Origin: Rugalucina vietnamica
Lineage: Eukaryota; Mollusca; Bivalvia; Lucinida; Lucinidae
DNA length: 64,000 nucleotides
Assembly (NCBI GenBank): GCA_964017185.1
Contig: OZ024870.1
Location: forward strand, 67,146,312-67,210,311
Direction: 5' to 3'
The notes under the pieces are model-generated. The model was given only the letters and a program-made list of their open reading frames with translations, was not told where the DNA came from and searched no databases. Both the position numbers and the translations under genes were made by a program. Below are positions 3,452 to 62,509 of the stretch, piece by piece (position 1 is the first letter of the stretch; every line of letters begins with the position of its first letter).

Positions 3452-6150
3452 TGGCGCGGTAAAGTTAGCAAACTGGCAGAATGAGCAGAATGAAATGGTA
3501 AAGTTAGCAAACTGGCAGAACGAGCAGAATGAAACGGTAAAGTTAGCAAACTGGCAGAATGAGCAGAATGAAACGGTAAAGTAAGCAAACTGGCAGAATG
3601 AGCAGAATGAAAAATGTCTTTGTCGATTTTCTCATTCTGCCCATTCTGCCCATTCTGCTGGCAGAATGAAACGGTAAAGTTAGCAAAATAGTAGAATGAG
3701 CAGAATGAGCAGAATGAAAATGTCTTTGTCGAATTTCTCATTCTGCCCATTCTGTCCATTCTGCTGGCAGAATGAAACGGTAAAGTTAGCAAAATAGCAG
3801 AATGAGCAGAATGAGAAAATCTTTGTCGATTTTCCCATTCTGCCCATTCTGCTGGCAGAATGAAACGGTAAAGTAGCAAAATAGCAGAATAAGCAGAATG
3901 AAAATGTCTTTGTCGATTTTCTCATTCTGCCCATTCTGCTGGCAGAATGAAACGGTAAAGTTAGCAAAATAGCAGAATGAGCAGAATGTGCAGAATGAAA
4001 ATGACTTTGTCGATTTTCCCATTCTGCCCATTCTGCTGGCATTCTGCTCATTCTGCCAGTTTGCTAACTTTACCGTTTCATTCTGCTCGTTCTGCCAGTT
4101 TGCTCTGCAGAATGGGCAGAATGAGAAAATCGACATAGACATTTTCATTCTGCTCATTCTGCTCATTTTGCTAACTTTACCGGTTCATTTTGCCAGCAGA
4201 ATGGGCAGAATGGGAAAATCGACAAAGACATTTTCATTCTGCTCATTCTGCTACTTTGCTAACTTTACCGTTTCATTCTGCCAGCAGAATGGGCAGAATG
4301 GGCAGAATGAGAAAATCGACAAAGTCATTTTCATTCTGCTCATTCTGCTATTTTGCTAACTTTACCGTTTCATTCTGCCAGCAGAATGGACAGAATGGGC
4401 AGAATGAGAAAATCGACAAAGACATTTTCATTCTGCTCATTCTGCTATTTTGCTATTTTGTCGATTTTCCCATTCTGCCCATTCTGCTGGCAGAATGAAA
4501 CGGTAAAGTAGCAAAATAGCAGAATAAGCAGAATGAAAATGTCTTTGTCGATTTTCTCATTCTGCCCATTCTGCTGGCAGAATGAAACGGTAAAGTTAGC
4601 AAAATAGCAGAATGAGCAGAATGTGCAGAATGAAAATGACTTTGTCGATTTTCCCATTCTGCCCATTCTGCTGGCATTCTGCTCATTCTGCCAGTTTGCT
4701 AACTTTACCGTTTCATTCTGCTCGTTCTGCCAGTTTGCTCTGCAGAATGGGCAGAATGAGAAAATCGACATAGACATTTTCATTCTGCTCATTCTGCTCA
4801 TTTTGCTAACTTTACCGGTTCATTTTGCCAGCAGAATGGGCAGAATGGGAAAATCGACAAAGACATTTTCATTCTGCTCATTCTGCTACTTTGCTAACTT
4901 TACCGTTTCATTCTGCCAGCAGAATGGGCAGAATGGGCAGAATGAGAAAATCGACAAAGTCATTTTCATTCTGCTCATTCTGCTATTTTGCTAACTTTAC
5001 CGTTTCATTCTGCCAGCAGAATGGACAGAATGGGCAGAATGAGAAAATCGACAAAGACATTTTCATTCTGCTCATTCTGCTATTTTGCTAACTTTACCGT
5101 TTCATTCTGCCAGCAGAATGGGCAGAATGGGAAAATCGACAAAGTCATTATCATTCTGCTCATTCTGCTATTTTGCTAACTTTACCGATTCATTCTGCCA
5201 GCAGAATGGGCAGAATGAGAAAATCGACAAAGACATTTTCATTCTGCTCATTCTGCTATTTTGCTAACTTTACCGTTTCATTCTGCCAGCAGAATGGACA
5301 GAATGGGCAGAATGAGAAAATCGACAAAGACATTTTCATTCTGCTCATTCTGCTATTTTGCTAACTTTACCGTTTCATTCTGCCAGCAGAATGGGCATAA
5401 TGGGAAAATCGACAAAGTCATTTTCATTCTGCTCATTCTGCTATTTTGCTAACTTTACCGTTTCATCCTGCCAGCAGAACTTGGGCAAAATGAGGAAATC
5501 GACAAAGACATTTTCATTCTGCTCATTCTGCTATTTTGCTAACTTTACCGTTTCATTCTGCCAGCAGAATGGGCAGAATGGGAAAATCGACAAAGTCATT
5601 TTGATTCTGCTCATTCTGCTCATTCTGCTATTTTGCTAACTTTACCGTTTCATTCTGCCAGCAGAATGGGCAGAATGGGCAGAATGAGAAAATCGACAAA
5701 GTCATTATCATTCTGCTCATTCTGCTATTTTGCTAACTTTACCGTTTCATTCTGCCGAATGGGCAGAATGAGAAAATCGACAAAGACATTTTCATTCTGC
5801 TCATTCTGCTCATTCTGCTGTTTTGCTAACTTTACCGTTTCATTCTGCCAGCAGAATGGGCAGAATGGGCAGAATGGGAAAATCGACAAAGTCATTTTCA
5901 TTCTGCTCATTCTGCTATTTTGCTAACTTTACCGTTTCATTCTGCCAGCAGAATGGGCAGAATGTGCAGAATGAGAAAATCGACAAAGACATTTTTCATT
6001 CTGCTCATTCTGCCAGTTTGCTAACTTTACCGTTTCATTCTGCTCGTTCTGCCAGTTTGCAAACTTTACCGTTTCATTCTGCTCGTTCTGCCAGTTTGCT
6101 AACTTTACCATTTCATTCTGCTCATTCTGCTAGTTTGCTAACTTTACCGG
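3452..6150. repeat. CAGAATG-based tandem array with internal inversions
   Basis: Units of about 88-97 bp contain CAGAATG runs, AATCGACAAAGACATTTTC and GCTAACTTTACCGTTTCATT. Orientation flips near 4036, 4452 and 4673. Many overlapping frames on both strands are by-products of the repeat, not genes. Confidence 0.92.
3826..5085. repeat. Recent 635-bp tandem duplication inside the array
   Basis: 3826-4450 is repeated at 4461-5085 with an offset of 635 bp, including the inversion point. 123-residue translations from the two copies are identical, so the duplication is recent. Confidence 0.85.
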
Positions 6151-21500: not shown

Positions 21501-23602
21501 TATATTACTGATCATTCCAAGGCGCTATTTCTCTTGTGGTTCTTTTTGTTTAATGTTTTAAAGTCAAATTTTAGTGCTGTTTGAACCTTATATACGTTTT
21601 CATATTTTTTAAGTTCCGGTGACTAAGTGGCCACCTATTTGGGAAATAGCTGGTCACTCGGCTTACGATATGTTTTCTGAGTATAAGTACCTAATTGTCA
21701 ATTTAGTTTTTCCCACCTCGGTTTTTGGAGTGGGAATTTCTTTCTTATTGTGCCTTTTCCTGATCGTTGCCTACTTGTACTTTTCCGGAAATCTGCAAAA
21801 TTCTCTATTATCTAGTCTCAAACATCTATAATTAAATCATTGCTGAAGACATGGTGAGCCGAGATTGTCACAGTTTTCAGTGTATTCCTCAAATGTACAA
21901 TAGAAAGGCGCCTTAGCATTCTTCTTTTTCTGTCAAATGTGCCTGGCCATCGCGGAGCTGGAGAATAAATCGCCAATAATAGATGATAATAGCTACGAGG
22001 CCCTACAAATCGCACTTCCCTTCACGAGTAACTCTTTCATCAGTGTACATGTTAAATAAAGTCGACCCTGGCGACAAAAACTATCACTTATTAGATTCCA
22101 ATTTTAACCTCGGTTCATGTTAAGTTGACAGACCACCGTATAGCTGTTTCATCTTTTCGTCGAACGTTTTCCTGGTATACTAAGCAAATTGTTTAGGCTA
22201 TCCCACACAAAACTGTTTAAACCTACCTTTTAAATGTGGTTGGTGAGTTACATATGCCGAATGGCGAGATATTTAACTCAAAAGAGCATTTTCTACTGAT
22301 GAATGTTGTTTTCTTTTTGTCTTCTCGGTCAAGTTGTTTGTGCGATTTTTCTATCCCATGCAGTTTATAAGCGTCTTTTATTGTTCCGACATTCAGTCTG
22401 TAACAATCAACTCAAAAGTCTTTTCTTGCATCCTATTCATTGACAACAACATTGCCAATACATATCATACATCCTCAATTGTCTCGTTCATCCCTTTCTG
22501 TATACAAAATGGAACCATTCTGAGCGTCAGTTAGATTGGCTATGCAGCCGCTGTTGGTATCCTATGCCAGTCCTATTGTGCCAATATTTTGTAAAGAATA
22601 AAAATGAGAACGGGTAATGTGGATCTATTCGTTTCTGTTATTTTCTTTCTAATTGTACCGTTTCCTGGTCATTGCCTACTTTTACCTACTTATTTCTGTT
22701 AGTGTCTAGCCATTATTTTTTCTTTTGGCACAATCAATCAAATGACATCGAAATGCCCTTCTATTTGCTTTAGCTACGTTCTTTACTTTTTGTCGTCGGT
22801 AGAAAAGACATTTGCTATATTTGTTCCAGGATAAGTGAACTACAAGATCATTGGTTGCATATTTTCACCGATTATAATCTGAGCTTTTCATTACCGTTCC
22901 CAACTTATTGCGATTGATAAGAATGCCATTGATTTTTCAACCACCTAGATTATGTGGAAGCACGGACCACCAACTCCATCTACAGACCACCGGCAACACT
23001 TCTGTGGCGATACTGCACACTGGTGGTGACTATTACGGGGCTGGGTTTGTTATTACGTTTAGCACAGGTGTGTATGATAATACACCCTACTTTTTCATTT
23101 GTAGTCTTTAAAATAATTAAGTATCTACATGAAGTTCTTAATGTTAATCGACAAGTAAAACTTGTCAAATATTTTTTGTTAATTATTTACGCTTTGGTCA
23201 CATTTCACACATACTTGTACATGTTTTACAACAAAGAAAACAGAAACCAAAAAAAGAAAGATAAAAAGAAAAAAAAATATAATTACGACAAATGCACTTA
23301 TAAATCCAAATGTGTTTGGCATTTAGGACAACGTGCCAGCGTATGCATCCCCAACCCCTGCAAAAATGCCGATGAGGTTTGCCAGGAGACTTTACTTGGA
23401 AGTTACGAGTGTAAATGCCCTTTACATTTAAAAGGACAACACTGCGATATTGTTGGTACGTACTCATACATTTAAAGGGACAACACTGCAATATTGTTGG
23501 TACGTACTTATTAAACACGTCAGTCAAAACGTGTCAGTACGAAAACACGCCATGTAATATACATTTTTTTTTCAAAATTTTAAAAAATTGAAAGTTTTCA
23601 GT

Positions 23603-23650
<48 letters not shown>

Positions 23651-26600
23651 TTAAATATAGAGTGTGGGTACACGTTAGAACCATCTCGAAGAGGCGGTTC
23701 TAACGAGTACCCTCACTATGTTTTTGAGCAAAACTAAGAAAAATAAGAATACCCAAGTTTTACTATAAAAAGTGGGGTAAAAGGGGGTAAACATTTCACG
23801 GACATGTTTTCCTGATGTAAATAGATAACTATAAAATAAATAAATGAACTAAAAATGAAATTCATTATTTTCATTTTTCACATATTTCATGTATTATTTT
23901 CTCAAATTCTAACTGTGTTCATGCATTACAGATACAATCACATGTAATTTCGATGTTCCAATGGGACCTGAAGAGCTCTGTCTGTTTTCTCAGAGTTCAC
24001 ATGACAATATTGACTGGAGAAGAAAGCAGGTGAGGTTTTCCCATGACGCAGCTCAGACATTGCAGAAATGAGCTAAATTTCAATTGCTATGGTAATTTTG
24101 TACACCCCATTGTTTTTGTTTTACCCAGGGAAGTATCTCTTCTTCGGACGCAGGGCTTGGTGAAGACATTACTTGTAACGCATCCTATTACCTGTCCATA
24201 TTTTAATAAGCTTCAGATTTTTTTAAAAAGCTATAAAATGAACATTTACAGTTGATTTTTTTAGCTCGACTGCACGAAGTGCATAGAGCTATTGCAGTCA
24301 CCCCGGTCGTCCACGTTCCCGTGCGCGTTCCCGTGCGCGTCACACTTGTGTTAAAATTTTCTAGAAGTCCATATCTTGACAACCAGAAAGCATTCATACT
24401 TGGACCATAGATATCCTGTAGGGTTAGCTTTCATTCCATGGCATCGGGCCCCTGGGTCCAGGCCAGGGGGTGGGGCTGGAGGTTAAAATCTAGAACACCT
24501 TCAAAAATGGCAATTCTTGTGTTAAAGTTTTCTAGAAGTCCATATCTTGACAACCACTCATCAGAAAGCATTGATACTTGAGCCATTGACACCCTGTAGG
24601 GTCGGCTTTCATTCCATGGCATCAGATCTCTGGGTCCATGCCAGGGGGTGGGGCTAGAGGTTAAAATCTAGAACACCATTAATAATAATGACTTTTCTGT
24701 GATATAGTATTCTTGAAGTCTATACCTTGAAAACTTTTTATCAGAGGGCTTTCATACTCGGACCATAGGTACCCTGTAGGGTTGAGTTTCATTTCATGGC
24801 ATCGGATCTCTGGGTCCATGCCTGAGGGGTGGGGCTGGAGGTTAAAAACTAGAACATTGTAAAAAATAGATGTACTGCTATGTAACTTTTACAAGGAGTC
24901 CATATCTTGACAACAACTTATCATAAAGCATTCATACTTCATACACTTTAGGTTCCATGACATCGGACCTCAGGGTCGGAGTTAGGGGGGCGGGGCTAGA
25001 GGTCAAAATCTAGAACTCCCTGAATTTTTTTCTTTTTATTTCTTAATAGAAACAACTTAAGAAGATGGTTGGTCATTCATCTTTTGACTTTGTGACACTG
25101 ACTTGTGTGTCATGACGGTAAGGGTCGGTTGACCTACTTTCCATGGTTCAGTGATTTTGCCTTATATCTTGACACTCAATTAGTATATTTTCTTACTTCT
25201 TTCAGATTATGAGTGAGTACGACCAGGCCATTGACCCCAATATACTTATAGGTCACTGTGACCTAATTTCACGGTTCAGTGATTTTGCCTTATATCTTGA
25301 CACTCAATTAGTATATTTTCATACTTTTTTTCAGATTATGAGTGAGTATGACCAGACCTTTGACCCCAATATACTTATAGGTCACTGTGACCTAATTTCA
25401 CGGTTCAGTGGTTTTGCCTTATATCTCGGTACTCAAATGGTTTATAAACAAACTTCTTTCAAAGTATGTTTGCGTATGACAAGACTTTTGACCCTGAAGT
25501 AGTCCTAGGTCACTGTGACTTAATTTCACGGTTCAGTGATTTTGCCTTATATCTTGACACTCAATTAGTATATTTTCATACTTTTTTCAGATTGAGTGAG
25601 TATGACCAGACCTTTGACCCAAATATACTTATAGGTCACTGTGACCTAATTTCACGGTTCACTGACTCTTCCTTATATCTCAGCACACAAGTGGTTTATG
25701 AACAAACTTCTTTCACACTATGTTTGCGTATGACAAGACCTTTGACCCTAAAGTAGTCCTAGGTCAATATGACCTTATTTCACGGTTCAGTGATTTTCCT
25801 TTATATCTCGGCACTCAGTTGGTATATGGACATACTTCTTTCACGATATGTATAAGTATGACAAGACCTTTGACCGTAAAGTATTCCTGGGTCACTGTGA
25901 CCTAATTTCATGGTTCAGTGATTTTGCCTTATATCTCGACACTCAGTTGGTATTTTTTCATATTTCTTTCTAATTATGAATGAGTATGACCAGACCTTTA
26001 ACCCAAATATACTTATAGGTCACTATGACCTAATTTCATGGTTCAGTGATTTTGCTTTATATCTCAACACTGAATGGGTATATGATAATATTTCTTTCAC
26101 ATTATGAGTAAGTATCACTAGACCTTTGACCCTGAAATACGTACAGGTCAGTGTGACCTTATTTCACAGTTCAGTGATTTTGCCTTGTGTTTTGGCACTC
26201 AGTTGGTATATGAACACACTTCTTTCACAATATGAGTGAGACCTCTAAATCTTAGGTAGTTATAGTTAACTTTCATGGTTCAGTGATTTTGCCTTATTGC
26301 ATCAAGGCAAAAAGATGTATGAGCATAATGCTTTGGGTTACTGGTCGGGTTTGGCCTTATGTTTGACAAAGGTCAGAAGCAGTCGAGCACGCTGTCCTGC
26401 GACATCTCTTATTAAACAAATGTTTTATATATTTTTGATAAAAACATAGATTGTGGGTAAACATTAGAACCGCCTGGCCGAGTACCCACAATCTATATTT
26501 TAGAAAAATATAAACCCAATATTTACTATACAAATGGGGCAGGGGGACGGGGCGAAAGGGTATTCATTTCACCGGACATTTTTTCCTGATGTTTTACCTT

Positions 26601-29600
26601 AGGGTAGTACCGCCTCCTCTGGGACGGGACCTGATGACGACATAACTGGTGGAGGATCCTATTTGTTCATAGAGGCGTCAAAGCCAACTCAAACTGGAGA
26701 CAAAGCTGTGCTGAGAAGTGCTAAAATAACCGGTATTCTACATATGAGCCGCGACGTGGGAAAACCGGTATTCGGTGTTTCAGACAAGGTCTGACACAAA
26801 CCGTGCTGTGCAGCTACAGAAAATGGCTAGACGCTTGAAATTTCGGGTTTAGGAAGAAGAGCAATTGTACTATATGTGTAGCAAAAACAAAGGCGCTGAT
26901 CAGTTGTGCAGTAACTGCTCAGCTGATCTACGCCTTTGTTTTTTGGCAAAGGCACAAATCCGGTTTTCGCATGACGCGGCTCAAATTAATAAATTAACTG
27001 ATTTTCAAATACTAGTAGTAACCAGTCGGATAACATATTTTTATTTAACAAACCAACAAGTGATGGGTGTTTGAATCAAGTTTCCAACACGGTACACAGG
27101 GACCCAACTCTGGTACACCCAGAGGGAAAACAAGTCTTATTTAGCGCTGACTTAAATTTTATATTACTGGCCGTTCCACGTCGACACTCTGTGGTGGTTC
27201 TAATCGTTAAAAAAATAAATTTTGATGTTGAATTTTTGTGGAGTTTGCGCCTTACGTACGCTTTCATATCTTTAATTAAGTTTGGGTGGCCGCCCATTGG
27301 GAAATAGCTGCTCACTCGGCTTACGATGTGTTTTCTTAGTATAGGTACCTGATTGTTAGTGTGTTTTTCCAGCTCGGTAATTGGAGTGGGAATTTCTCTC
27401 TGATTGTGCCATTTCCTGATCACCGCCTACTTTTACCTTTATACCCAATGATGTTCGATGATTCGACGATGCGTTTCATTTTGCTGTCAGTATATTAAAA
27501 AGGGAACTGTTTCGACCTAGAAACATCACTTATGCCATGTTCAGTGGAGACAGGGGAATCGAGTTATGTGTATTATTACAAAATATAAAGAAGTATGGCA
27601 CTACTTTATTAGTTTTCTTTTTGAGACGACCCTGAACTTTATCTTTGATTTCAAACGAAGTTCGATGTCCGTTTCCGCCACCGCCTTAATCCGCAAATGT
27701 CAATTAAAAAGACACTCAGTTCTCGTTTAAAGGTAAAACGGATGGCAAATGTCATTAGTTCCATATTGATTGGAATATAAAGTTACATTTCAGGCGGTAT
27801 CAAATGTCTGTCGTTCTATTATCATATGTATGGCTCGTCAACTGGGCAGCTCCACGTGCTAACTCTACCCACGAGTAAATCCATGCCATGGGTGGTTTCA
27901 GGCGAGCAAGGGCCTGACTGGATTGAGGCGAAAATTGATCTGAACATGACTAAAATCTTTATGGTAAGTAACTTTTGTTTCCAGTTTATATATTTAATTG
28001 GAGCTTTGCCATTTTCAGATTTTTATTAATATTTTAAAATATAATTACAATTATTTGCTGGAAATTGCTAGCTACATTTATTTTACAATGAATATACACA
28101 TTTATCGCTATTCTCGAGTTATTGAAGCATTATTACTGTTGATGTCGCATCAAATAAGCATTTATCAGGCACTCCAACTCAGTGACATCTCGAGACTATG
28201 TAATATATGGGTCATTATCAAAAAATGGAGCAATCCAGAAAGGCAAAACGAAAAAAATTAATTGTCCATTTTTTCTTTTTTAATGGGATAGTTTTATTAA
28301 CAGGAGCATATAGAATATAGAAATAAAATATGCCGAGTTTAACTGAACAAATACTGCACCAGCATTAATTAATTGTATGGTACCCTTGAAAAAATATCAG
28401 TGCTGTCACGAACAAACTTTCTTGCGTAACGCGCTCATTTGATAAGACTTCCCCAATCTGTAAGTGGGGGCATATATAACTTGTCACGAACAATAGTTCA
28501 CACAAACCTTAAATACTTTCAATGAATTAACGGGGAAGAGATCTTCAATGAAAATGCACATACTGTGATTTGTTCTGTTTCTGAAACGCTTTATTTTTGT
28601 AGACATTATCTTGTTGGATTAAACCAAAAATAAGTTCTGCTAAATGTTTACTATTTCAGTATAGTATCATAACATACCAAAAGCAATTACTTTTATATGG
28701 TGCGTTTTAGTATTTTAAATAATTATGACCGTGACAGCACTGATATCGTGACAGCACTGATGTTGTCGTGACAGCACTGATAATTATCCGATCTCGCCTT
28801 TTTCATTCCAATGTGTGCGAAAATGATTAATTTCTGACCATTTACCGATGAGCTTAGGGGCAGTGACTCACTTAAGGTAGCAACCAACGAAGCCTTTGCT
28901 GTTGCTCTAACCAGGGACACCTTTTGCGTAGATCCAATGCTCAAAAAACATGTTCGCTTCACGCAAACCAAACGCGATGTAACACGTAAAGCGCAGTAGA
29001 AGCGCTGTTCATCTTAAGCAGCAGCATGAGAAAATGTGTCTTTGGGGCTTTCGACCAGGTCTAAGACAACCAGGATAGTTCACGACAAAAGACCGCATTA
29101 AATTTAGGACCCTATCACGGATTTTAGGGAGCTGGGTAGCAGGGCCATTTTGTTTGTTTGTGTTTCTGTTGGGGCTTAACGTCCCAGTCAACAATTTATT
29201 AGTCATGTCGGGACGGAGCCAACGCTTCCTAAGTTTAACCAGTACTGTAGGGAATTAATGTGTCTTGCCCAAGGACACATCACGGTGACGCCTGTGGTGA
29301 TCGTACCCAGGACCTCTCGATTCGGAGTCCGACGCTATACCACTACGCCACCGCGCTCCCCACGGCCATATTGTTTTCAGGGAGCTTGGGAAAACTGGAA
29401 ATCAATTGAAGGGAATTGAGGATTACTAGAAGAGAACACTCTTGGTTTAAGGAAGCTGGGAGCAAGGAAAAGATTTTTAGGGAGCTAGGGAGAAAGGTCA
29501 TTTTTCTTTTAGTGAACTTGGATCTAATACCTCCTTGGATGGGCCTCAACTTTAGGTTAACTTGCAGCTGAGCAGCACATTTGCTTTCACATATATCCCA

Positions 29601-38600: not shown

Positions 38601-41600
38601 CTTCAATAGTTATTGTAATATGCACTTTTAAGAATTTAATGTGGATGTGTTTTGTTTTGATGTATGGTTTTGTTTTGTCATTGTTTTTTATATTAATTTT
38701 TAGCTCACCTGAGCCGTCAGGCTCACAAGGTGAGCTTATAGTATACCCATGCTCCGGCGTCCGTCCGTCCGTCCGTCGTCCGTCGTCCGTCCGTCGTCCA
38801 CCATTTTCAAAGATCTTCTCCTCTGAAACCGCTTGGCCAATCAAAGCCAAATTTTACATGAAGCATCTATGGGAAGGGGGAACCAATGTGTATATAAATA
38901 ATCCAGGTCACATGACCAAGATGGCCGCCATGCCCATATATGGTAAAAACCCTTCAAAAATCTTCTTCTCCGGAACCACTGGACCGATTTCAACCAAACT
39001 TGGCATGAAGTATTAATGGCTCAAGCACTACAATGTATATATAAATCATGACCCTATGATGACCTTGACCTATTTTACGGCAAGGTCAACATAGGTCGCG
39101 AATGCATTTGAATGGGAAAAATTGTTAGATTGTCATTTAAAGGAAAAATCTTGCAGAAAATGAGCAGTAGGACTGAATATTAATGATTCTGAAAAAAATT
39201 GGGCACCAGGGGCTCATCCGCCCCCACCCCGGGGCAATATACATGTATATCTCCATAATATTCAAACATCTTCTCCTCTGAAACCGCTTGGCCAATCAAA
39301 GCGAAATTTTATGTGAAGCATCAATAGGAAGGGGTAACAAATATGTATATAAAAAATCCAGGTCACATGACCAAGATGGCCGCCATGCCCATATATGGTA
39401 AAAACCGTTCAAAAATCTTTTTCTCCAGAACCGGTTGACCGATTTCAACGAAACTTGGCATGAAGCATGGATGGCTCAAGCACTACAATGTGTATATAAA
39501 TCATGACCCTGTGATGACCTTGACCTATTTTACGGGAAGGTCAACATAGGTCACCAATGCATTTGAATGGGGAAAACTTTTAAAATGTCATTTAAAGTGA
39601 AAGTCTTGCAGGAAATGGGCAGTAGGACTGGATATTAATGATTCTGAAAAAAATTGGACCTCAGGGGCTCATGTGCCCCCACCCCGGGGCAATATACATG
39701 TATATTTCCATAACATTCAAACGTCTTCTCCTCTGAAACCGCTTGGCCAAACAAAGCCAAATTTTAAGTGAAGCATCTATAGAATGGGGGAATCAATGTG
39801 TATATAAATAATCTAGGTCACATGACCAAGATGGCCGCCATGCCCATATATGGTAAAAACCCATCAAAAATCATCTTCTCTGAAACCAATAGACTGATTT
39901 CAAGGAAACTTGGCGTGAGGCATTGATGGCTAAAGTACTCCAATGTATATATAAATCATGACCCTGTGATGACCTTTATGGCAAGGTCAACATGGGTTGC
40001 CTGTGCATCTGAATTGGGAAAACTGTTAAAATGTCATTTGAAGGAAAAAGCCAACAGGAAATTGGCAAATGGACAGAATATTGAAGATTCTGAAAAAAGA
40101 AAATGGCCCAAGGGCTTATCTGCCCCTGCACTGGAGTTAAATACCATAATATTCAAACATGTTTATTGGTATATGCAGCTGATCTCAGGTGAGCGTTTAC
40201 AGGACCATTGGTCCTCTGGTTGCATTTTGTTTTCATCTGCCTTGAAAGAAATTGTTTAGACAAGACCATTTGGCATTGAATTGTTCTTGATTATTGTGAA
40301 TTTTTGAAATGTACTTTTCATTTTGGTATTTTCTTTTCACATAACATATGAATGTTTCGATACTGATGAAATTCGATGAAAATTTTCTTTTGTATATAAA
40401 ATACCTAGCCAATAGGAGTAAGTAATTTAACAAATTGTTCTTTGTTTGACCTGGGAATAGAGCATGTTTTATTGTCACTTCAAAAGTTATATTGGCTTCT
40501 GTTTGCAACCAGTTTTGAAGAGTTGACCAAAATTCTTTTATTTTGCTACAGTTGTAGAAAATATGTGATTTGGTTTCAGAGTCTTGGTTACAGTACGAAC
40601 ATCTATCATTATCGACTTTGTTTATTAACTCACCTGAGCCGAAGGCTCACAGGTGAGCTTATAGTATACCCATGCTCCGGCGTCCGTCCGTCGTCGTCCA
40701 CAATTTCAAAGATCTTCTTCTCTGAAACCGCTTGGCCGATCAAGTTGAAATTTTATGTGGAGGCTCCTTGGGTAGTGGCATTTCAAGTTTGATCGCGAAA
40801 TCCAGGTCACATGACCAAGATGGCCGCCACGCCCATATATGGTAAAAACCCTTCAAAAATCTTCTTCTCCAGAACCGGTGGGCCGATTTCCACGAAACTT
40901 GGTATGTAACATTGGGGACTTCAGCCCATCATAGTTTGATAAAATGATGACCCATGGATGACCTTGACCTATTTTACGGCAAGGTCAAATTTGGAAACAT
41001 AGGCTTTTACATGGGAAAAAGTGAAAACTATGGATTTTTTGAAATCTATTGCAGCCTGAGGCCTGAAAAGTGGTAGATGCAAACAACTAATGGAGTAGAT
41101 GAAGGTATGTGATTAATTTAGGTCAAGGTCATCTCTTGACCTTGGCCAGTCTGTCGTCCATACACACTTTTCAAAGATTTTCTTCTCTGAAACTGCTGGG
41201 CCAATCAAAGTGAAATTTTATGTGGAGCATCCATGGGTAGGGGAGACGAAAGTTTGATCGCGAAATCCAGGTCACATGACCAAGATGGCCGCCACGCCCA
41301 TATATGGTAAAAACCACTCAAAAATCTTCTTCTCCAGAACCGGCAGGCCGATTTTCATGAAACTCGGTATGTAGCATTTGGGACTCCAGCCCATCATAGT
41401 TTGATAAAATGATGACCCTAGGATGACCTTGACCTAATTTACAGCAAGGTCAATTTTGGAAACATATGCTTTTACATGGGAAAAAGTGAAAACTATGGAT
41501 TTTTTTGAAAACTATTGCAGCCTGATGCCTGAAAAGTGGTAGATGCAAACAACTAATGGAGTAGATGAAGGTATGTGATTAATGTAGGTCAAGGTCATCT

Positions 41601-44600
41601 CTTGACCTTGGCCAGTCTGTCGTCCATACACACTTTTCAAAGATCGTCTTCTCTGAAACTGCTGGGCCAATCAAAGTGAAATTTTATGTGGAGCGTCCAT
41701 GGGTAGGGGAGACGAAAGTTTGATCGCGAAATACAGGTCACATGACCAAGATGGCTGCCACGCTCATATATGGTAAAAACCACTCAAAAATCTTCTTCTC
41801 CAGAACCGGCAGGCCGATTTTCATGAAACTTGGTATGTAGCATTTGGGACTCCAGCCCATCATAGTTTGATAAAATGATGACCCTAGGATGACCGTGACA
41901 TATTTTACGGCAAGGTCAATTTTGGAAACATAGGCTTTTACATGGGAAAAAGTAAAAACTATGGATTTTTTGAAAACTATTGCAGCCTGATGCTTGAAAA
42001 GTGGTAGATGCAAACAACTAATGGAGTAGATGAAGGTATATGATTAATTTAGGTCAAGGTCATCTCTTGACCTTGGCCAGTCTGTCATCCATACACACTT
42101 TTCAAAGATCTTCTTCTCTGAAACTGCTGGGCCAATCAAAGTGAAATTTTATGTGGAGCATCCATGGGTAGGGGAGACGAAAGTTTAATCGCGAAATCTA
42201 GGTCACATCACCTAGATGGCCGCCACGCCCATATATGGTAAAAACCACTCAAAAATTTTCTTCTCCAGAACCGGCAGGCCAATTTTCGCGAAACTTGGTA
42301 TGTAGCATTTGGGACTCCAGCCCATCATAGTTTGATCAAATGATGACCATAGGATGACCTTGACCTGTTTTACGGCAAGGTCAATTTTGGAAACATAGGC
42401 TTTTACATGGGAAAAGGCGAAAACAATGGATATTTTGGAAACTATTGCAGTCTGAGACCTAAAAGTTGCTAGATGCTAGTGTTGGGCCATCGGTTTGAAA
42501 TTACAATCGATTATCGGTTTATAATGGGATAGACTAATACCCTGTTTAGACTAGAGTTTTAAATCGAATCGAATCCGAATTCGCTTCGAATTAACTGTTT
42601 ACATTAGAAGTTCTAATTCGAATTAAAAAACTAATTCGAAGTAAACTAATCCAGCTTAGCACCTTGGATCGAAACCGAATTAACTTTTACTTCGGTATTA
42701 AAGTCATGTCTAAACAGTTAACCGAAGCGAATTCGCATTAAATGTTATTTTCATACTGACCTTTTGCATGTTGGGGTTATGTTTACATTTACACATGCTT
42801 CTTTTCCCGCGAAATATTCTGAGTCAACACAACAGATAAAAATGGCGAAAATGGCTGTAGCAAAGGACAGTGACAGGGGATTAACCTGGACTTACGATGA
42901 GACGCGGGCCCTAATACGATTATGGGCGGATAGCGAGATACAAAAGGACTTTGAAGAAATGCTTCCATTTATGAAAAGCTAGCGACACGGCTCAGGGACA
43001 GCGGGTTTGAGCGCACAGCGAGCCAATGCCGTACAAAAGTAAAAAGCTTGAGAGCGGATTATAATGCAACCAAAACAGAAAATTAAAAAAAAATCTTCAG
43101 TTTTAACGGAGAATTTCAGATGTGTCTAAACAGACAAGTGGATTCGATCCGGATTACCTTACAGCGACGTAACTTGCATCGAATCGAAAACGGTTTAGTT
43201 CGTTTTAGTGTAAACAGGGTATAAACCAACTAGCTATCGATTGTGTAATCGGTTGAACTAGCTATACTTTGCATTTGCCTTTCATGCATGTCATAACCAT
43301 GGTGACAGTTTCATTGCCCACTGAGTGGGTCAATAAAAGAGCTTTTAATTGCCTTATCTGTTTAGAACACATTCCACTTAGAACAGATCACTGATTTAGG
43401 AATTTCTACCTTTCTGTCCTGATATTCTAGGTAAATGAAAAAGACATATTGATGCTCAGGTTACATATATAATGGACCAGAACAGCTTCAGTTACATTGT
43501 AACTTTGGGATATCCATGTTAGATCTACTTTGAAACCTAAATGGTACACCTTTTTCAGATATAAACCCCTTAAAATATTATTTCTACATTATGAATATTG
43601 CAACCGATTACAATCGATTGCTGCATTTTACTATCGATTATCTTAATCGGAAGGCCAAACCAACTGACTTTCGATTATAATCGATCATCGGCCCATCACT
43701 ACTAGATGCAGACAACCAATGGAGTCAATGAAGGTAAGTAATTAATGAAGGCCAAGGTCATTTCTTGACCTTGACCCAAGGTCATTTAAATATCAAAATT
43801 AAAATTATGGTTTTCTCAGAAATCACTGGGTTTGGAAAACTATTGCAGCCTGAGACCTGAAACTTTGCAGATGCAGACAACTTGTGAAGTCAATAAAGTT
43901 GTGTTAGTATTCAAGGTCAAGGTCATTTCATGATGACTTAATACTCCAGGATCAGGCTTCAGGTGAGCGTTCTCAGGACCAATGGTCCTCTGGTCTTAAA
44001 AAGGAATGACTTTGTCACTATGATATGGTTATTGACTTTAAACTGAAAATCTTTTAACTTCACCTCTTTTATCTTTTTTGTTTCGGTATTTATCTTATTC
44101 CATTCTTCTTGTGTTATATTTCCTACACTGTTTACCCATGATTGTACTGGTAAGGTTGGCTCTTTGTTACTGATAAGAATATCATAAAATCTTCTGCTTC
44201 CCTTTTTATCTTTACTTAATTTTTTTACATACAAATTTCGCTCTACATTATTTTTTAATTCTTGACAAGTTTTAATCTATTTTGATTTATCTTAGTTCTC
44301 CAGTCGGCTGGTATTTTACGAAGTATGGAATGATAGTCTAGAAACGTTCCCTGAATGTTGTATGTAACTTTTAGTTCATCCAGCTGATAAAAAAAAAAGT
44401 TGATACTTTGCATGTTGGTAGATATTGGTCTGAAGTTTTATGCTGTACCATCATTACCCACCTGGGTGACCTTGAGGTCAAGGTTACGGACTTAGAAATT
44501 TTGTGTTAGAGATTTTGGTTAAAGTTTTTATAAGTCAATATCTCTTGAATATGTAGAGGGATCAAGTTGATACTTTGCATGTTGGTAGATATTGGTCTGA

Positions 44601-47090
44601 AGTTTTATGCTGTACCATCATGACCCACCTGGGTGACCTTGAGTTCAAGGTCACAGACTTTGAAATTTTATGTTAAAGCTTTTGCTTAAAGTGTTTTTAA
44701 CTGTATATTGCTGGAACAGATGGATGGATCTAGTTGATACTTTGCTGTTAGATATTATTCTTTTATTATGCTGTAGCATCTTGACTCACCTGTGGTCAAG
44801 GTGACAGACTTAGATTTTAGGTTATAAGTCTATATCAAATATGCAGATGGATCAAGTTGAACTTAGCATGTTGGTAGATATTGGTCTGAAGTTTTGTGCT
44901 GTACCATCACAACCCACCTGAGTGACAATGAGGTCAATGTCTTTGGTCGTAGATTTAATAGATTTAGTGACAAAGCACAAGTCAGGCGAACTACGCTGTC
45001 CTGCGACAGCTCTTATTATGTGTTTCAGGTTGTGTTTAGCTATATTGTAGGCTCTGGATTTCGTGGTGATCTAGCCGTCGACAATTTCAGCGTAGCCCAT
45101 GGCTCTTGTACACATCCGTCAAATCAGGCATCCCTACCTGGTGAGCTTGCTCTTCATCGCATGTTTTTGTGAGATCTGGCGATATTCCATTATGAAAACA
45201 CGTCAATGTACAAAAATGTAATATACATGTAGAAGTAAAATTTTTATGCCCCCAACTTCGGAAGAAGTTGAGGGGGCATATTGGTTTGGGTCTGTTGGTG
45301 CAGTGCAGTGAGTGCAGTCAGTCAGTCAGTCAGTCAGTCTGTCTGTGATGCGTGAGCACTCGGTCAGGAACCATTAGAGCTAGGATCTTCAAATTTGGTA
45401 TGTAGTTTGTACATGAAAATTAAGAGGACCCGTATTTTTTTTCAGGTAAATTCAAGGGGCTAGGGGCCAATTCTGTGAGAGTTATTTCCCTTTTTAATTC
45501 TTGATAAAGTGAATATATAGTGGATACCTTGTGTGCGCAACTCCTCCTACAGTTTTATTCCGATTCTCTTCAAACTTTACAGATGTTGTGACCATGCTTT
45601 GAAGATATGCATGTGGTTTGGATCTAATCCTCAGATTAATTTTTGTCACTTTTTTCGCAATTTGAACTTAGCCATTTTTCGGGCATTTTGACAATGAAAG
45701 TGAATGGGCAGTGGGTACCTTGTGTGCGCAACTCCTCCTACAGTTTCATGCCAATTCAGTTAAAACTTTACATGTATTATGGGCATGGTCTGAAGATATG
45801 CATGTGGTTTGGACATAATCCTTGGATTATTTTATGTCATTTTTTTTCACAATTTGAACTTAGTCATTTTGTCGGGCATTTTAGTGGATGGATAGAGGGT
45901 ACCTTGTGTGCGCAACTCCTCTTACAATTTAATACCGATACTTTTGAAACTTTGCAGACATTGTGACCATGCTTTGAAGATATGCATGTGGTTGGGATAT
46001 ACTCCTCAGATTAATTTTTGTCACTTTTTTTACTATTTGAACTTAGTCATTTTTTGGACATTTGTACATCTTGAAAGTGGCTTACCAGTTGGTGGCATAG
46101 TGTTTCATAAACACATTTTTAGTTTACTATTTTTCTTGTTCTTTGATCAAAACATTGATTGTGGGTACACGTTAGAACCGCCTCAACGAGAACCCCCACA
46201 ATCTATGTTTTGGATCAAAAATAAGAAAAAGTTAACCTCTCTGAACCCCACTTTCATTATATAGTTTTCCCCGTGGTGTCGGTATAATCCTTAATACTCG
46301 TCCATACGAGTATCAAAACCAACTCGTAGTCAATACAGTAAATTATCCAGTTCCGGGTCACTTTTTTTCGAAGTGGTTTCCAGATAATTGCTCACAGCAA
46401 ACTAGGTTTCGACCTTACCATAAGAAAGTATAATCCTTCTTCTAAATAATGAACTTTAGTCTGATTAATCGTGAATATTCTGTGGGCCATACGATGGCTT
46501 TGAAGCAGACCACCAATTTATCCAGTTCCGAATCATTTATCCAGTTCCGAATCACTTGCGATAATTTTTAAACAGGACACTCTCTGGCGCTATTGCGTTA
46601 TGATTTTGAGTTTGTAGCGTCATTACTTCTTTATAAAACAAGACTTACACACAGTTTACCATTTCAGATAGAAAAAGTGTCAAAAAACTGTGTACATGTA
46701 TACGACGTATAACTTACGTTCTGGATATTGGCGTCAATCGAAAACAAATACATGTTCTAAGTCGATAATGGCGTAACTGGTTCCAGATTTTTGCAGTTAA
46801 GAGCTGGTAATCATGGGCTGTGCATTGGTTATTTTAATTTTTGTTTGTTTGTTTGTTTTGTTGTTGATGTTTTATGAGTTTAACTTTCACCTGTTTGATT
46901 AACATTGAATTTCAAACACAGCTTTAATGTTGCGTAAACAGAGATATCTAACAGGAGTATGTCAACTAGACTAGAAATCCAGACAGCATGTTTTGTTCGC
47001 GATGCAGATTGACTGCACAAAGAATCACCTGTGTAAGGAAACGACCGTTTGATTTTTATTATTGGGGAGGGGGGGGGGGGGGTCTGTAAG

Positions 47091-52312: not shown

Positions 52313-54836
52313 TAGCTCACCTGAGCCGAAGGCTCACAAGGTGAGCTTATAGGATGTCCGTCCGTCCGTCGTCCACAATTTCAAAGATCTTCTTCTCTGA
52401 AACCGCTTGGTCGATCTACTTGAAATTTTATGTGGAGCATCCATGGGTAGGGGGAACAGAAGTTTGATCGCGAGATCTGGGTCACATGACCAAGATGGCC
52501 GCCACGCCCATATATGGTAAAAACCACTCAAAAATCTTCTTCTCCAGTACCGGTGGGCCGATTTCCACGAAACTTGGTATGTAGCATCGAGGACCTCAGC
52601 CCATCATAGTTTGGCAAGGTCAAATTTGGAAACATAGGCTTTTACATAGGAAAAAGTGAAAACTATGGATTTTTTTGAAAACTATTGCAGCCTGAGGCCT
52701 GAAAAGTGGTAGATGCAAACAACTAATGGAGTAGATGAAGGTATGTGATTAATATAGGTCAAGGTCACCTCTTGACCTTGGCCAGTCTGTTGCCCATACA
52801 CACTTTTCAAAGATTTTCTTCTCTGAAACTGCTTGGCCAATTAAAGTGAAATTTTATGTGAAGCATCCATGGGTAGGGGAGACGAGAGTTTGATCGCGAA
52901 ATCCAGGTCACATGACCAAGATGGCCGCCACGCCCATATATGGTAAAAACCACTCAAAAATCTTCTTCTCCAGAACCGGTGGGCCGATTTCCACGAAACT
53001 TAGTATGTAGCATCAAGGACCTCAGCCCATAATAGTTTGATAAAATGATGACCCTTGGATGACCTTGACCTATTTTACGGCAAGGTCAAATTTGGAAACA
53101 TAGGCTTTTACATAGGAAGAAGTGAAAACTATGGATTTTTGAAAACTATTGCAGCCTGAGGCCTGAAAAGTGGTAGATGCAAACAACTAATAGAGTAGAT
53201 GAAGGTATGTGATTAATATAGGTCAAGGTCATCTCTTGACCTTGGCCAGTCTGTCGTCCATACACACTTTTCAAAGATCTTCTTCTCTGAAACTGCGCGA
53301 GCAATCAAAGTGAAATTTTATGTGGAGCATCCATGGGTAGGGGAGACGAAAGTTTGATCGCGAAATCCAGGTCACATGACCACGATGGTCGCCACGCCCA
53401 TATATGGTAAAAACCACTCAAAAATCTTCTTCTCCAGAATCGGTGGGCCGCTTTCCACGAAACTTGGTATGTAGCATTGAGGACCTCAGCCCATCATAGT
53501 TTGATAAAATGATGACCCTTGGATGACCTTGACCTATTTTACGGCAAGGTCAAATTTGGAAACATAGGCTTTTACATATGAAGAAGTGAAAACTATGGAT
53601 TTTTCGAAAACTATTGCAGCCTGAGGCCTGAAAAGTGGTAGATGCAAACAACTAATGGAGTAGATGAAGGTATGTGATTAATATAGGTCAAGGTCATCTC
53701 TTGACCTTGGCCAGTCTGTTTTTCCATACACACTTTTCAAAGATCTTCTTCTCTGAAACTGTGTAGCCAATCAAAGTGAAATTTTATGTGGAGCATCCAT
53801 GGGTAGGGGAGACGAAAGTTTGATCGCGAAATCTAGGTCACATGACCAAGATGGCCGCCACGCCCATATATGGTAAAAACCACTCAAAAATCTTCTTCTC
53901 CAGAACCGGTGGGCCGATTTCCACGAAACTTGGTATGTAGCATCAAGGGCCTCAGCCCATCATAGTTTGATAAAATGATGACCCTTGAATGACCTTGATC
54001 TATTTTACGGCAAGGTCAAATTTGGAAACATAGGCTTTTACATAGGAAGAAGTGAAAACTATGGATTTTTCGAAAACTATTGCAGCCTGAGGCCTGAAAG
54101 TGGTAGATGCAAACAAATAATGGAGTAGATGAAGGTATGTGATTAATATAGGTCAAGGTTATCTCTTGACCTTGGTCAGTCTGTTGTCCATACACACTTT
54201 TCAAAGATCTTCTTCTCTGAAACTGCTTGGCAAATCAAAGTGAAATTTTGTGTGGAGCATCCATGGGTAGGGGAGACGAAAGTTTTTAGCGAAATCCAGG
54301 TCACGTGACCAAGATGGCCGCCACGCCCATATATGGTAAAAACCACTCAAAAATCTTCTTCTCCAGACCGGCAGGCCAATTTTCATGAAACTTGGTATGT
54401 AGCATTTGGGACTCCAGCCCACCATAGTTTGTTGAAATGATGCCCCTATGATGACCTTGACCTATTTTACGGCAAGGTCAATTTGGAAACATAGGCTTTT
54501 ACATGGAAAAAGGCGAAAACAAACTGTTGCAGCCTGAGACCTGAAAGTTGCTAGATGCAGACAACTAATGGAGTCAATGAAGGTAAGTAATTAATATAGG
54601 CCAAGGTCATGTCTTGACCTTGGCCCAAGGTCATTTAAATATTAAAATTATGGTTTTCTCAGAAATCTCTGGGTTTGGAAACTATTGCAGCCTGAGACCT
54701 GAAACTTTGCAGATGCAGACAACTTATGAAGTCAATAAAGGTGTGTGAGTATTCAAGGTCAAGGTCATTTCATTATGACTTAATACTCCAAGATCAGGCT
54801 TCAGGTGAGCGTTCTCAGGACCAATGGTCCTCTGGT
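52313..54836. mobile_element. Family-1 element, copy C (5 units of about 465 bp)
   Basis: TAGCTCACCTGAGCCGAAGG / CTCACAAGGTGAGC head, GTCCGTCCGTC, end AGGACCAATGGTCCTCTGGT. CCATATATGG at 52508, 52934, 53398, 53864 and 54327. The first spacing is short (426), a deletion. Confidence 0.88.
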
Positions 54837-59583: not shown

Positions 59584-61263
59584 CTATATCAAGTCTTTTG
59601 TTTCTTCTATGAATGGATTTCCCAACTCATCCAGGCTTCTAGCCATCTGTTTAACACTTGTCAGAAAGCTGGTCTGGTTTGATTCCGTTTCCTCATGATG
59701 ACGGAAACCTGCTCTGAATGTGCCATATTCATAATCAAACTCTTCAATAAGGCGACCTATTTCTGGACCTGCAGCCATCCATCTTCGAAGTGCAGAAGGA
59801 TCTACAGTCAAACCTACTGCTCCGCCGTCACCTTTCACAACTTTATTGTTCTGTTCGTGAGCTTGGTCAATTGCAATAGCTGAAAAATTCCGTGCAGTTT
59901 TATGTACAGCAAAGTGACCATTCTTGAATGCCTGTGCAACGTCAGGATGATTTGTTTCAATTAAAGCCATATCCCGCAAATGCACTGGTAGCTATCGAGC
60001 ATAGTTTGTGTGGTCCAAGGCAAAAACGTAGGGCACAAGCTCAGACAAAGACTCTCTGTAGAGTTCAAAGTTTGTTTCTCTGATGGACCGTATAAAGCCA
60101 AGGATAAGAAGCTAAAATGTCAAAATCTGACTCCAAAATTGAAACTGTGGATTACTTTCCTCCTTCATTTTACAACAGAATTCAAAACTATCCTCTTCAA
60201 AGCCTGTAACAACATTGTCGCTTTGATACTGTTCATATGCTCGCTGGAGTAGATTGAAAAGCGCACATGCTGTTACTTGGTGAGCAAGTCTTGTTTTTGC
60301 TACACTGGAAGCAGAAAGAAATGAGTCTGCGGTTCCAGAGGACGCCACACCTGCTTCAGTCAGGGCTGCCGTCCATCCACTGTCTTTGAGCAAACCACCA
60401 ATCGCTTTAAATGCAGCCATTTCTATATGCAGCCCACCAAACATTATAATGAATTTGTCCTCCCCATATGTCTCAGGCCATTGCCACTGAATTTGCTTAG
60501 CTACCGCAAACAAGGGCTGATCTGCAGTAACCACCGGTATTTGATCTGCATTCAGATATTGTGTTGCTTCTTTGATCTTATTCATAGCATGCTTAACTGT
60601 AGCAATAGAGTGTGCCTGTTCTGGCAAGAGAGGCAACAGTGCAGATATGCACGGCCTAAATCGCAGTCCCCGATGTTTAGAAGCATGATGAGCCGCCCAT
60701 GTCACTGTTACTCCACCTTCTACATCTTCTGTTACATTCACATGTTCAAGCCACCGGTGTTCCATTTTCAAGTTCTGATACAGGATTTCAGGCTTCAAAG
60801 GAAGCACATTTTCACTTGTAGATGGAACAGGGGCAGCATCCTTGAAATATGCTGGCCTTACATTTGTATATGCTTCTGGCAGTGACGGAACTTTCCTGGT
60901 GGCTGGACTCCCAGCTATATGAAGTAGTTCTCGTTGGTCACCTCTTTCAGAGTTTGTTGGATGTTGAAACAATGAAATTCCTGTACCATGGAAAGACGAC
61001 TTTGCTGTGGTTGCGCTTGGATGGTGATCGATATTGTCAAGCGCACCTACAGCGAAGAGTCCCTTTCGGAGTGCAGACGGACAGACAACACCTTCTTCTA
61101 GGAAACGTTCCACAAGTGCTGTTCCCATTTGTGATGAAATTTCAAGTACTCTGTCATACGAGGTACAGATACCAAACCGGTGGAGTGTATCAATCAAATG
61201 ACGTTTTCCTGATCTTTGCCTACTTGTACTTTCTTGTCCTCGCATACAGCAACAATCCAACAT
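59584..61263 (-). pseudogene. Transposase-like gene, central RNase H-like block
   Basis: One frame interrupted by two TAG codons. Candidate catalytic acids: D in VVTADQPLFA, E in GGLHIEMA, E in DQAHEQNNK. LDHTNYAR*LPVHLRDM shows a tryptophan-to-stop change, since the conserved text has W there. Assignment as a DDE-type core is inference. Confidence 0.65.
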
Positions 61264-62317
61264 ATATCACAAAAGGTGTCTCACGATCCTTTGAATGGTA
61301 CCTAATAGATGTTGCCCTTTTTCTTTGAGACTGGTGGTAATTGTAATGTATGATTTGTGCAACTGCAAGGTCTGGCATTATTATTTCGTTGTCAATCTGT
61401 GATTGTATGTCAGGACCATGCTCAATCATACTGACAAGTTCAACGAGTGAAGCCGGTAGACAGTTTTCCTCAAAATGGCCATCAAAGTTTGCGCTGCATT
61501 TCAAAATGTCTTTCCGAACAAGCTGTGCTGTTCTTGAAACATCTGTTAGTTCAAAAGCTCTTGACAAGGTGGGTCCTACATCATCTTTGAAGGCCAGAAG
61601 AACATTCCTGCCTTGTTGGTGAGCTTTTAATTCCGGTATGCGTTCAAGAAGCTGATCCTTGACCCTGGTTACATGAAGCTGGGGTTCTTCATAACCTAGC
61701 TGTTTCATCCTTTTTGTCATCAAATCTGTTAGATCAGATAGTTTAAAGACATTCCCTCCCTCATTACTTCTCTGTGTTTCAATTATATATGTAACAAGTT
61801 CAGCAAATGCTCTATCATATGCTTGTCTGTCGTGCTGGTGTTGTTCTTCTTGTTTTTGCTGTCTAAGAAATGAACGCTCTCTATTGTATACAGATGTCAA
61901 GCAAATTAGATGATACTTAACTTCTTGTGCAACAAGATCCCCAGCACTTAATTTGGCAAGGAGTTTTGTATCTTGTAGTAATGTGGCACATGCCTTCAGT
62001 CGTTCATATATGTTTTTCGTTATGGCTTTCCGACCTGCTTTGTCAATTTCTTTTTCACAGAAGAAGCACAGATTTTCATTATCAGTCACAGATGAAATTG
62101 AACGACGTGTACATGTACATTTACTTGGGCCTGCTTCCTCGGTAGGTTTGTGGGACATTGGCCGTTTCTGAGCACGGCCCAGCTTGTTGTTAAACATCAT
62201 TCTGCAACTTTGGTGGTATTTTGCATTGTTCTGTCTCAATGTTAGTTCAATTCCAGATCCGTCATCTATCCGTTTTGGCTCTAACGGTATCGGGAGAGCG
62301 TTGATCTCAACAAACAA
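61220..62317 (-). pseudogene. Transposase-like gene, N-terminal block
   Basis: 365-codon open segment. YHQSCRMMFNNKLGRAQ and LCFFCEKEIDKAGRKA give candidate zinc-binding cysteines; the rest is helical and charged (QEEQHQHDRQAYDRAFAEL). A 17-bp tandem duplication (62326-62359) and a 1-nt shift separate it from the start region MSKDIELPAAAEAKW at 62500. Confidence 0.75.
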
Positions 62318-62509
62318 AGGGACGTTTGTGGCTATATTTTTATTGTGGCTATATTTTTATAGCCATCATGCTCTGTGGTGTGAAGTGCTTGATGGACATT
62401 TTATGCCCTCTTTTTTGTCTTGTTGACACAAGCAACACTTCTCCCAATCTGTTTGCCATTTTGCCTCTGCTGCAGCAGGCAGCTCGATGTCTTTGGACAT
62501 TATGATTAT

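Follow-up and report, generated by a model that had tools for sequence, protein, structure and literature searches.

The 64,000-nucleotide stretch of the Rugalucina vietnamica genome analyzed here (the window; contig OZ024870.1, positions 67,146,312 to 67,210,311) carries a protease gene of astacin/CUB/MAM type, and the intron between two of its MAM exons holds a tandem array of oestrogen-response element (ERE) palindromes within a transposable element. A domain scan covering the + strand of positions 10001-38901 identified astacin (E=3.6e-21), MAM (E=8.4e-18), and CUB (E=6.8e-4; 20.4 bits, just under the curated cut-off of 21.4) matches, all on the same strand, and the two exons that flank the array intron jointly match MAM (E=1.3e-9). 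These matches bear out the placement of the array inside a protease gene, which an initial sequence-only reading of the window had proposed together with a further claim, namely that the array is a strong candidate for a mobile nuclear-receptor switch.

A motif scan confirmed all eight palindromes of AGGTCAnnnTGACCT type, six of them exact and two with one change (Table 1), at successive spacings of 129, 128, 126, 128, 128, 128, and 128 bp. The motif is indeed the consensus ERE, an inverted repeat with a three-base spacer (IR3); its full form is present in 6/8 sites and the core GGTCAnnnTGACC in 7/8. With up to two mismatches allowed, the window contains 16 sites, eight of which are the array sites, compared with a mean of 2.35 and a maximum of 8 in 100 dinucleotide shuffles. 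The notion of eight independent EREs was rejected: they are a single motif repeated within one 128-bp tandem array, the eight ERE-bearing units of which have a mean column identity of 0.80. As copies of one motif, the eight sites represent one ancestral event within the window. Outside the ERE, the unit consensus contains just one further receptor-type pair with no more than one mismatch, a site resembling a direct repeat with a one-base spacer (DR1-like), which at 25354 starts 25 bases ahead of an ERE start; among 1500 shuffles of the 113 non-ERE bases, 11 gave any pair of this quality in direct (DR0-5), inverted (IR0-5), or everted (ER0-8) arrangement.

The array lies at the heart of a 2.15-kb element that is built like a non-autonomous Helentron (HINE). 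The element combines subterminal inverted repeats (subTIRs) on the 5' and 3' sides, a partial inverse of the 5' one followed by a microsatellite, two internal tandem arrays (180 bp and 128 bp), and a 3' palindrome, and subTIRs, left-subTIR inverse, microsatellite, internal satellite arrays, and 3' palindrome are likewise the layout described for oyster HINEs (PMC7492417). No exact AGGTCA was present in the one unit tested of the 180-bp array. BLAST against an initial set of 11 stretches of contig 1 gave long matches in 10 of them, with edges mostly near 24256 and 26414; one match extends to 26510, into a neighboring repeat. In most rows of the alignment, copies begin with AGCTCGACTGCACGAAGTGCATAGAGCTATTGCAGTCACCC after a run of T and end with GCAGTCGAGCACGCTGTCCTGCGACAGCTCTTATT, and the flanks beyond are unrelated. 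Ends shared with copies on another contig agree with the earlier proposal that a transposable element carries the array. The window copy is identical to a 16-copy consensus, in which it is itself included, at 2112/2150 aligned bases (98.2%). The 3' palindrome reads GCTGTC-CTGC-GACAGC in 10/12 aligned rows (two rows being identical), the GACAGC arm being that of most other aligned copies, and this arm is altered in the window copy and in one other (L006). Folding predicts a 6-bp stem for the palindrome, yet 61/200 shuffles were at least as stable, and the window copy's own 3' end, with its mutated arm, does not form the predicted stem.

Table 1 Features of the protease gene intron and the ERE-bearing element (window positions).
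Feature	Position	Strand	Description	Basis
Upstream exon	23952..24029	+	MAM domain start	limits by eye from splice signals
Whole element	24263..26413	+	HINE-type element (non-autonomous Helentron), 2151 bp, AGCTCGACTGC...CTCTTATT	ends common to copies elsewhere
Left flank	24264..24299	+	5' subTIR GCTCGACTGC (24264-24273), partial inverse GCAGTC (24294-24299)	
Left-flank microsatellite	24314..24340	+	short, CGTTCCCGTGCG repeats; differs from copy to copy	Tandem Repeats Finder (TRF)
First tandem array	24345..24939	+	~180-bp unit, 3.4 copies	TRF
Second tandem array	25130..26240	+	128-bp unit, 8.7 copies, one ERE in each of 8 units	TRF
ERE 1	25250..25264	.	AGGTCACTGTGACCT, exact	
DR1-like nuclear-receptor site	25354..25366	-	AGACCTTTGACCC, reverse GGGTCAAAGGTCT, one mismatch to RGGTCAnRGGTCA	
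ERE 2	25379..25393	.	AGGTCACTGTGACCT, exact	
ERE 3	25507..25521	.	AGGTCACTGTGACTT, one change (TGACTT), core broken	
ERE 4	25633..25647	.	AGGTCACTGTGACCT, exact	
ERE 5	25761..25775	.	AGGTCAATATGACCT, exact	
ERE 6	25889..25903	.	GGGTCACTGTGACCT, one outer change (GGGTCA), core GGTCAnnnTGACC kept	
ERE 7	26017..26031	.	AGGTCACTATGACCT, exact	
ERE 8	26145..26159	.	AGGTCAGTGTGACCT, exact	
Right flank	26379..26413	+	3' subTIR GCAGTCGAGC (26379-26388), palindrome GCTGTC-CTGC-GACATC (26391-26406), end TCTTATT	
Downstream exon	26603..26731	+	MAM domain continued	limits by eye

Two further features lie in the neighborhood of the element. Directly to its left, positions 24129-24197 seemingly represent an additional, decayed copy of MAM exon 26603-26731, as judged by eye. 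Inverted repeats at 26745-26766 (TGAGCCGCGACGTGGGAAAACC) and 26962-26983 (GGTTTTCGCATGACGCGGCTCA) likely delimit a small element with terminal inverted repeats (26745-26983), and an arm resembling them is also found at 24034-24055.

A search of the host genome (1.09 Gb, 47 contigs) placed the frequency of the motif far above chance. Exact IR3 sites occur at 22,978 places, compared with ~47 expected at the base composition of the window, with 20 places for the pattern read backwards and with 260 for IR4, in which the spacer is one base wider. The 83 IR3 places listed cover contig 1 up to 2.65 Mb; a count from this listing assigns 82 of them to arrays with 128-bp spacing and leaves one solitary. 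The right-end 25-mer has 1,072 exact copies. Both element ends were found together in 43 distinct copies of 1970-4325 bases, obtained from 60 sources (59 loci and the window; one locus yielded two elements and one duplicate was removed); the 17 sources without a full element comprise eight Helentron loci, one lone ERE, and eight array loci lacking both ends together. Young copies on contig 1 are overrepresented in this sample, 40 regions having been fetched by the exact right-end 25-mer (covering 41 of the 100 places listed for it) and the others by exact EREs. Exact EREs number 3 to 10 per sampled copy. At a constant distance from an anchor that lies outside the ERE, 307/458 units carry the exact site and 350/458 the 10-base core, the remaining units including degenerate end units and shifted units. 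Two main copy classes were distinguished, class A, whose 16 copies carry eight ERE-core sites (mean identity to consensus 0.979), and class B, whose 12 copies carry 10 (0.991); the 15 other copies were excluded from these alignments. The unit anchor had no exact match in viral contigs or prokaryote genome contigs.

The insertion behavior of the family could be read from one copy that had inserted into a 167-bp repeat. Compared with 10 empty copies of that repeat, this one site has no duplicated target sequence except, possibly, one T. The empty copies read GGTTAAAGTTTTTAAAAG in four cases and GGTTAAAGTTTTTTAAAAG in two, the rest being variants; an insertion between two T fits if the target had six T (TTTTTTAAAAG, as in 2/10 empty copies), but four have five T and others differ. 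Across the 43 copies, left flanks are T-rich and right flanks are varied. Helentron-type proteins (Helitron_like_N) are abundant in the genome, with 409 candidates, of which 150 were scored and all 150 exceeded the cut-off, and with open frames of up to 3542 amino acids.

Comparison of units within the element placed the ERE among its best-conserved parts. Between consensus units, the 12 ERE bases average 0.979 in class A and 0.983 in class B, compared with 0.831 and 0.826 at the non-ERE positions, so that the ERE ranks 4 and 2, respectively, among the 128 circular placements. In the ERE-bearing consensus units (eight in class A, 10 in class B), 11/12 ERE bases are invariant, and the spacer varies (CTG, AAT, CTA, GTG). 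These comparisons support the view that a core containing the ERE was constrained while the unit diversified inside the element.

A candidate reader of the sites is encoded in the same genome. A search with the pattern CE(G/A)CKAFFKR, which misses any domain interrupted by an intron inside that stretch, returned two places, one of oestrogen receptor (ER) type and one of oestrogen-related receptor (ERR) type, both lying within zf-C4 matches (75 matches in all). The two were told apart by the P-box rule, which we take to discriminate ER from ERR. The ER-type place translates to exons of a DNA-binding domain with the P-box CEGCKA, and its best match among solved structures is AncSR1, a reconstructed ancestral steroid receptor, followed by the oestrogen receptor. 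The host genome therefore encodes a receptor of the ERE-binding family, which would be expected from its family to bind these sites. As a separate observation, the first zinc finger of nuclear receptors is matched seven times at 82-bp intervals at G000:C4:30355688-30356251, which apparently represents a tandem-duplicated receptor exon. In a gastropod, the ER binds GGTCAnnnTGACC without ligand, is constitutively active, and does not respond to oestradiol, its activity being raised by genistein at high concentration (PMC3778743). Because the gastropod receptor is unresponsive to oestradiol, a hormone switch is doubtful in a mollusc host.

We consider it a tentative but plausible reading, at a probability of roughly 40%, that the array is a HINE satellite serving as a selfish docking site for host receptors, which would aid mobilization of the element and by default have no selected role in host genes. 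An autonomous Helentron would supply the enzyme and move the HINE by rolling-circle transposition. The host ER-type receptor, perhaps together with other nuclear receptors, may dock on the row of sites wherever it is active, for example in the gonad. Docking could keep the chromatin of the element open and so favor mobilization, by analogy with Caenorhabditis Helitrons and HSF-1 and with the MSL sites of helitrons. New insertions, the intronic one included, would then be free docking sites that, by default, serve no selected function in the host gene.

Several observations weigh against receptor docking as the cause of the conservation and spread of the sites. Two neighboring blocks are nearly as conserved between units as the ERE, TTTCAnGGTTCAGTGATTTTGC (0.958 in class A, 0.957 in class B) and the DR1-like AGACCTTTGACCC (0.942 and 0.938), which indicates that the ERE is not uniquely constrained but part of a shared conserved core. 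The DR1-like block is exact in only 4/8 window units (25354, 25608, 25736, 26120) and changed in the other four, and ERE-free units make up 2/10 anchored consensus units in class A and 1/11 in class B. After insertion, EREs were not significantly protected relative to invariance-matched columns in the sampled copies (singletons 12/2,717 vs 90/14,056, P=0.28). An unmatched test had suggested selection (7/1,116 vs 173/10,509, P=0.007), as had, more weakly, unmatched tests per class (A, 10/1,524 vs 175/13,811, P=0.035; B, 3/1,440 vs 75/13,124, P=0.085), but significance was lost with matched columns, which supersede these tests; unmatched comparisons mislead because unit-to-unit exchange introduces changes solely at columns where the units are not alike. 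The ERR of the same gastropod apparently did not bind the ERE, data for which were not shown in that report (PMC3778743), and ERR is therefore an unlikely reader of the IR3 sites. Finally, the 3.4-3.6-kb stretches of eight Helentron loci contain no IR3 sites. The 100 listed right ends, out of 1,804 exact ones, extend over contig 1 as far as 57.9 Mb, and each is more than 50 kb away from all seven Helentron matches listed for that part of the contig. Accordingly, a Helentron partner with matching ends was not found among these right ends or in the short stretches of the eight loci.

Several of these points fit an amplified coincidence, which we regard as quite possible and as the most serious rival to selfish docking. 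On this view, a monomer with a chance ERE would have become a HINE satellite and been spread by rolling-circle copying and unequal exchange, so that the sites may bind ER in vitro yet would never have been kept by any role for element or host. Every array site traces to one motif in one unit, the EREs decay after insertion much like matched columns, and adjoining blocks that contain no known receptor motif are nearly as conserved. HINEs moreover carry assorted satellites (PMC7492417). The chance of an exact site is ~4.5e-6 per 128-bp unit for a motif chosen after the fact; if a genome holds several hundred families of tandem repeats, as the oyster does (393 clusters), the chance that one of them has this exact motif would be of the order of 0.2%, and many other motifs would have been equally noticeable. 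Coincidence accounts less readily for the rank of 2-4 of 128 held by the ERE between diverged units and for the DR1-like site within the same unit consensus. It is further weakened by another, unrelated satellite, whose palindromic ERR-type site occurs at 10,906 places.

This second repeat comprises a 167-bp array at 44397-44749 with TGACCTTGAgtTCAAGGTCA at 44634, followed by a HINE-like 3' palindrome at 44995. Single examples of its receptor-type palindrome occur at 11591, accompanied by a palindrome at 11664, and at 38135. Since no left end of the 167-bp repeat was found within the window, its assignment to HINEs rests on the right end. The palindromic TCAAGGTCA, which we take to be an ERR/SF-1 extended half-site, has 10,906 exact places genome-wide, compared with 0 for the control. 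A common origin of the 128-bp unit with the 167-bp and 465-bp units was rejected, as the alignment scores lie within those of 100 shuffles (20 vs a maximum of 33; 24 vs a maximum of 29); the 167-bp and 465-bp units score 26 against a maximum of 24 in 100 shuffles, a weak hint of common origin. On a broader reading, at least two Helentron-type satellites with unrelated units would have independently acquired and kept different palindromic receptor sites (~23,000 IR3 and ~11,000 TCAAGGTCA places), such that Helentrons would exploit host receptors, including ER and ERR, for germline access and would have laid down most of the consensus receptor-binding landscape of this genome. We consider this extension unlikely.

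Tandem arrays with a unit of 455-465 bp at 38806-40098, 40704-42476, and 52613-54625 also bear receptor-type half-sites (AGGTCA/TGACCT), among them AGGTCAAGGTCA and TGACCTTGACCT. One unit each of two 465-bp arrays has 7 AGGTCA half-sites (shuffle means 0.25 and 0.27) and the 455-bp unit tested has 4 (shuffle mean 0.16), numbers reached in 0/2000 shuffles in each case, and no such half-sites were present in the 180-, 191-, 30-, and 106-bp families tested. Outside the arrays, the window contains 41 AGGTCA half-sites, compared with a shuffle mean of 22.7 and a maximum of 35. Several arrays, though not every one, are thus enriched in receptor-type half-sites, with a mild excess in the remainder of the window, and the elevated level outside arrays means that the background is not neutral, which again favors coincidence. 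Positions 3457-6149 hold a large nested array in which CATTCTGCC/GCAGAATGG units occur in both orientations, and the longest stop-to-stop frames of the window overlap on the minus strand at 60112-61266 and 61220-62356 (384 and 378 amino acids).

Conservation of the palindrome may also have a cause other than receptors, such as a hairpin or site for the Rep/helicase, a recombination hot spot, or another DNA-binding protein. Helentrons transpose via single strands, and as single-stranded DNA the ERE is predicted to form a 7-bp stem of -5.2 kcal/mol, with 10/200 shuffles at least as stable. The second repeat is likewise palindromic. The variability of the spacer fits a loop as well as it fits a receptor site. 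A hairpin, however, requires complementarity only, yet the letters of the arms themselves were retained, as the near-complete invariance of the ERE bases attests. We regard a non-receptor cause as rather unlikely, though less so than the two-satellite scenario.

Selection by the host, in which this insertion would act as a receptor-driven enhancer of the protease gene, is the weakest of the alternatives and appears highly improbable. Its position in an intron of that gene and the retention of the 10-base core in seven of the eight sites favor this reading. Against this, one site has lost its core: the TGACTT at 25507 is absent from the same unit of the other 11 elements in a 12-element comparison, in which two of those 11 are identical to each other and one (L014) has TGACT in a different unit. 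All 12 elements contain a GGGTCA like that at 25889 in one unit, and it is also present in both subfamily consensuses. The window copy is ordinary in its identity to the consensus, sampled copies retain EREs after insertion in no significant excess, and with 1,072 exact right-end 25-mers in the genome an intronic insertion is unremarkable. Of the mobile nuclear-receptor switch originally proposed, the mobile ERE array is thus supported, but a switch acting on the protease gene is not, as EREs decay much like matched columns.

The family can be placed beside known systems. In the Pacific oyster, Cg_HINE elements (Vojvoda Zeljko et al. 2020, PMC7492417) similarly consist of a left flank, internal satellites, sometimes as two arrays in a row, and a right flank, and their arrays are dispersed in thousands. 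They differ in that their 13 clusters show monomer consensuses of 138-181 bp and receptor sites are not mentioned in the sections considered here, whereas the present unit measures 128 bp and contains an ERE. The HSF-1-binding Helitrons of Caenorhabditis (PMC6927752) are rolling-circle transposons with dense sites for a conserved host transcription factor, and their authors speculate on a selfish use of HSF-1 sites for mobilization. Those sites are heat-shock elements with demonstrated HSF-1 binding, whereas the nuclear-receptor sites described here are known from sequence. ISX/ISXR helitrons of Drosophila (PMC4384637) likewise dispersed a ready-made regulatory motif, the MSL site, but as 77 functional sites on one young X, compared with ~23,000 predicted sites genome-wide in this mollusc. 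Alu elements with DR2 retinoic-acid response elements (PMC1785376) provide a further case of transposon-driven, genome-wide spread of consensus nuclear-receptor elements, although in a primate SINE, whereas the present element is a DNA transposon whose IR3 sites form a tandem array. No report of EREs in HINEs was found among the titles and abstract openings of open-licence papers that combine EREs with the repeats, transposons, or Helitrons of molluscs or oysters, and a text search by motif letters matched only through the name BIV160. The authors of the gastropod ER study stated ignorance about EREs in mollusc genomes (PMC3778743).

Collectively, these results describe a HINE whose satellite is an array of putative nuclear-receptor sites and extend the eight sites of the window to ~23,000 in the genome, with a function that is a candidate. 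They make testable what the in vivo targets of invertebrate, often ligand-independent oestrogen receptors are, and whether rolling-circle transposons recruit host receptors in order to spread. In genomes of this kind, a transposon may swamp any search for oestrogen-responsive genes by motif scanning. Should Helentrons indeed have laid down most of the consensus receptor sites, the main binding targets of ligand-independent lophotrochozoan ERs would be accounted for.

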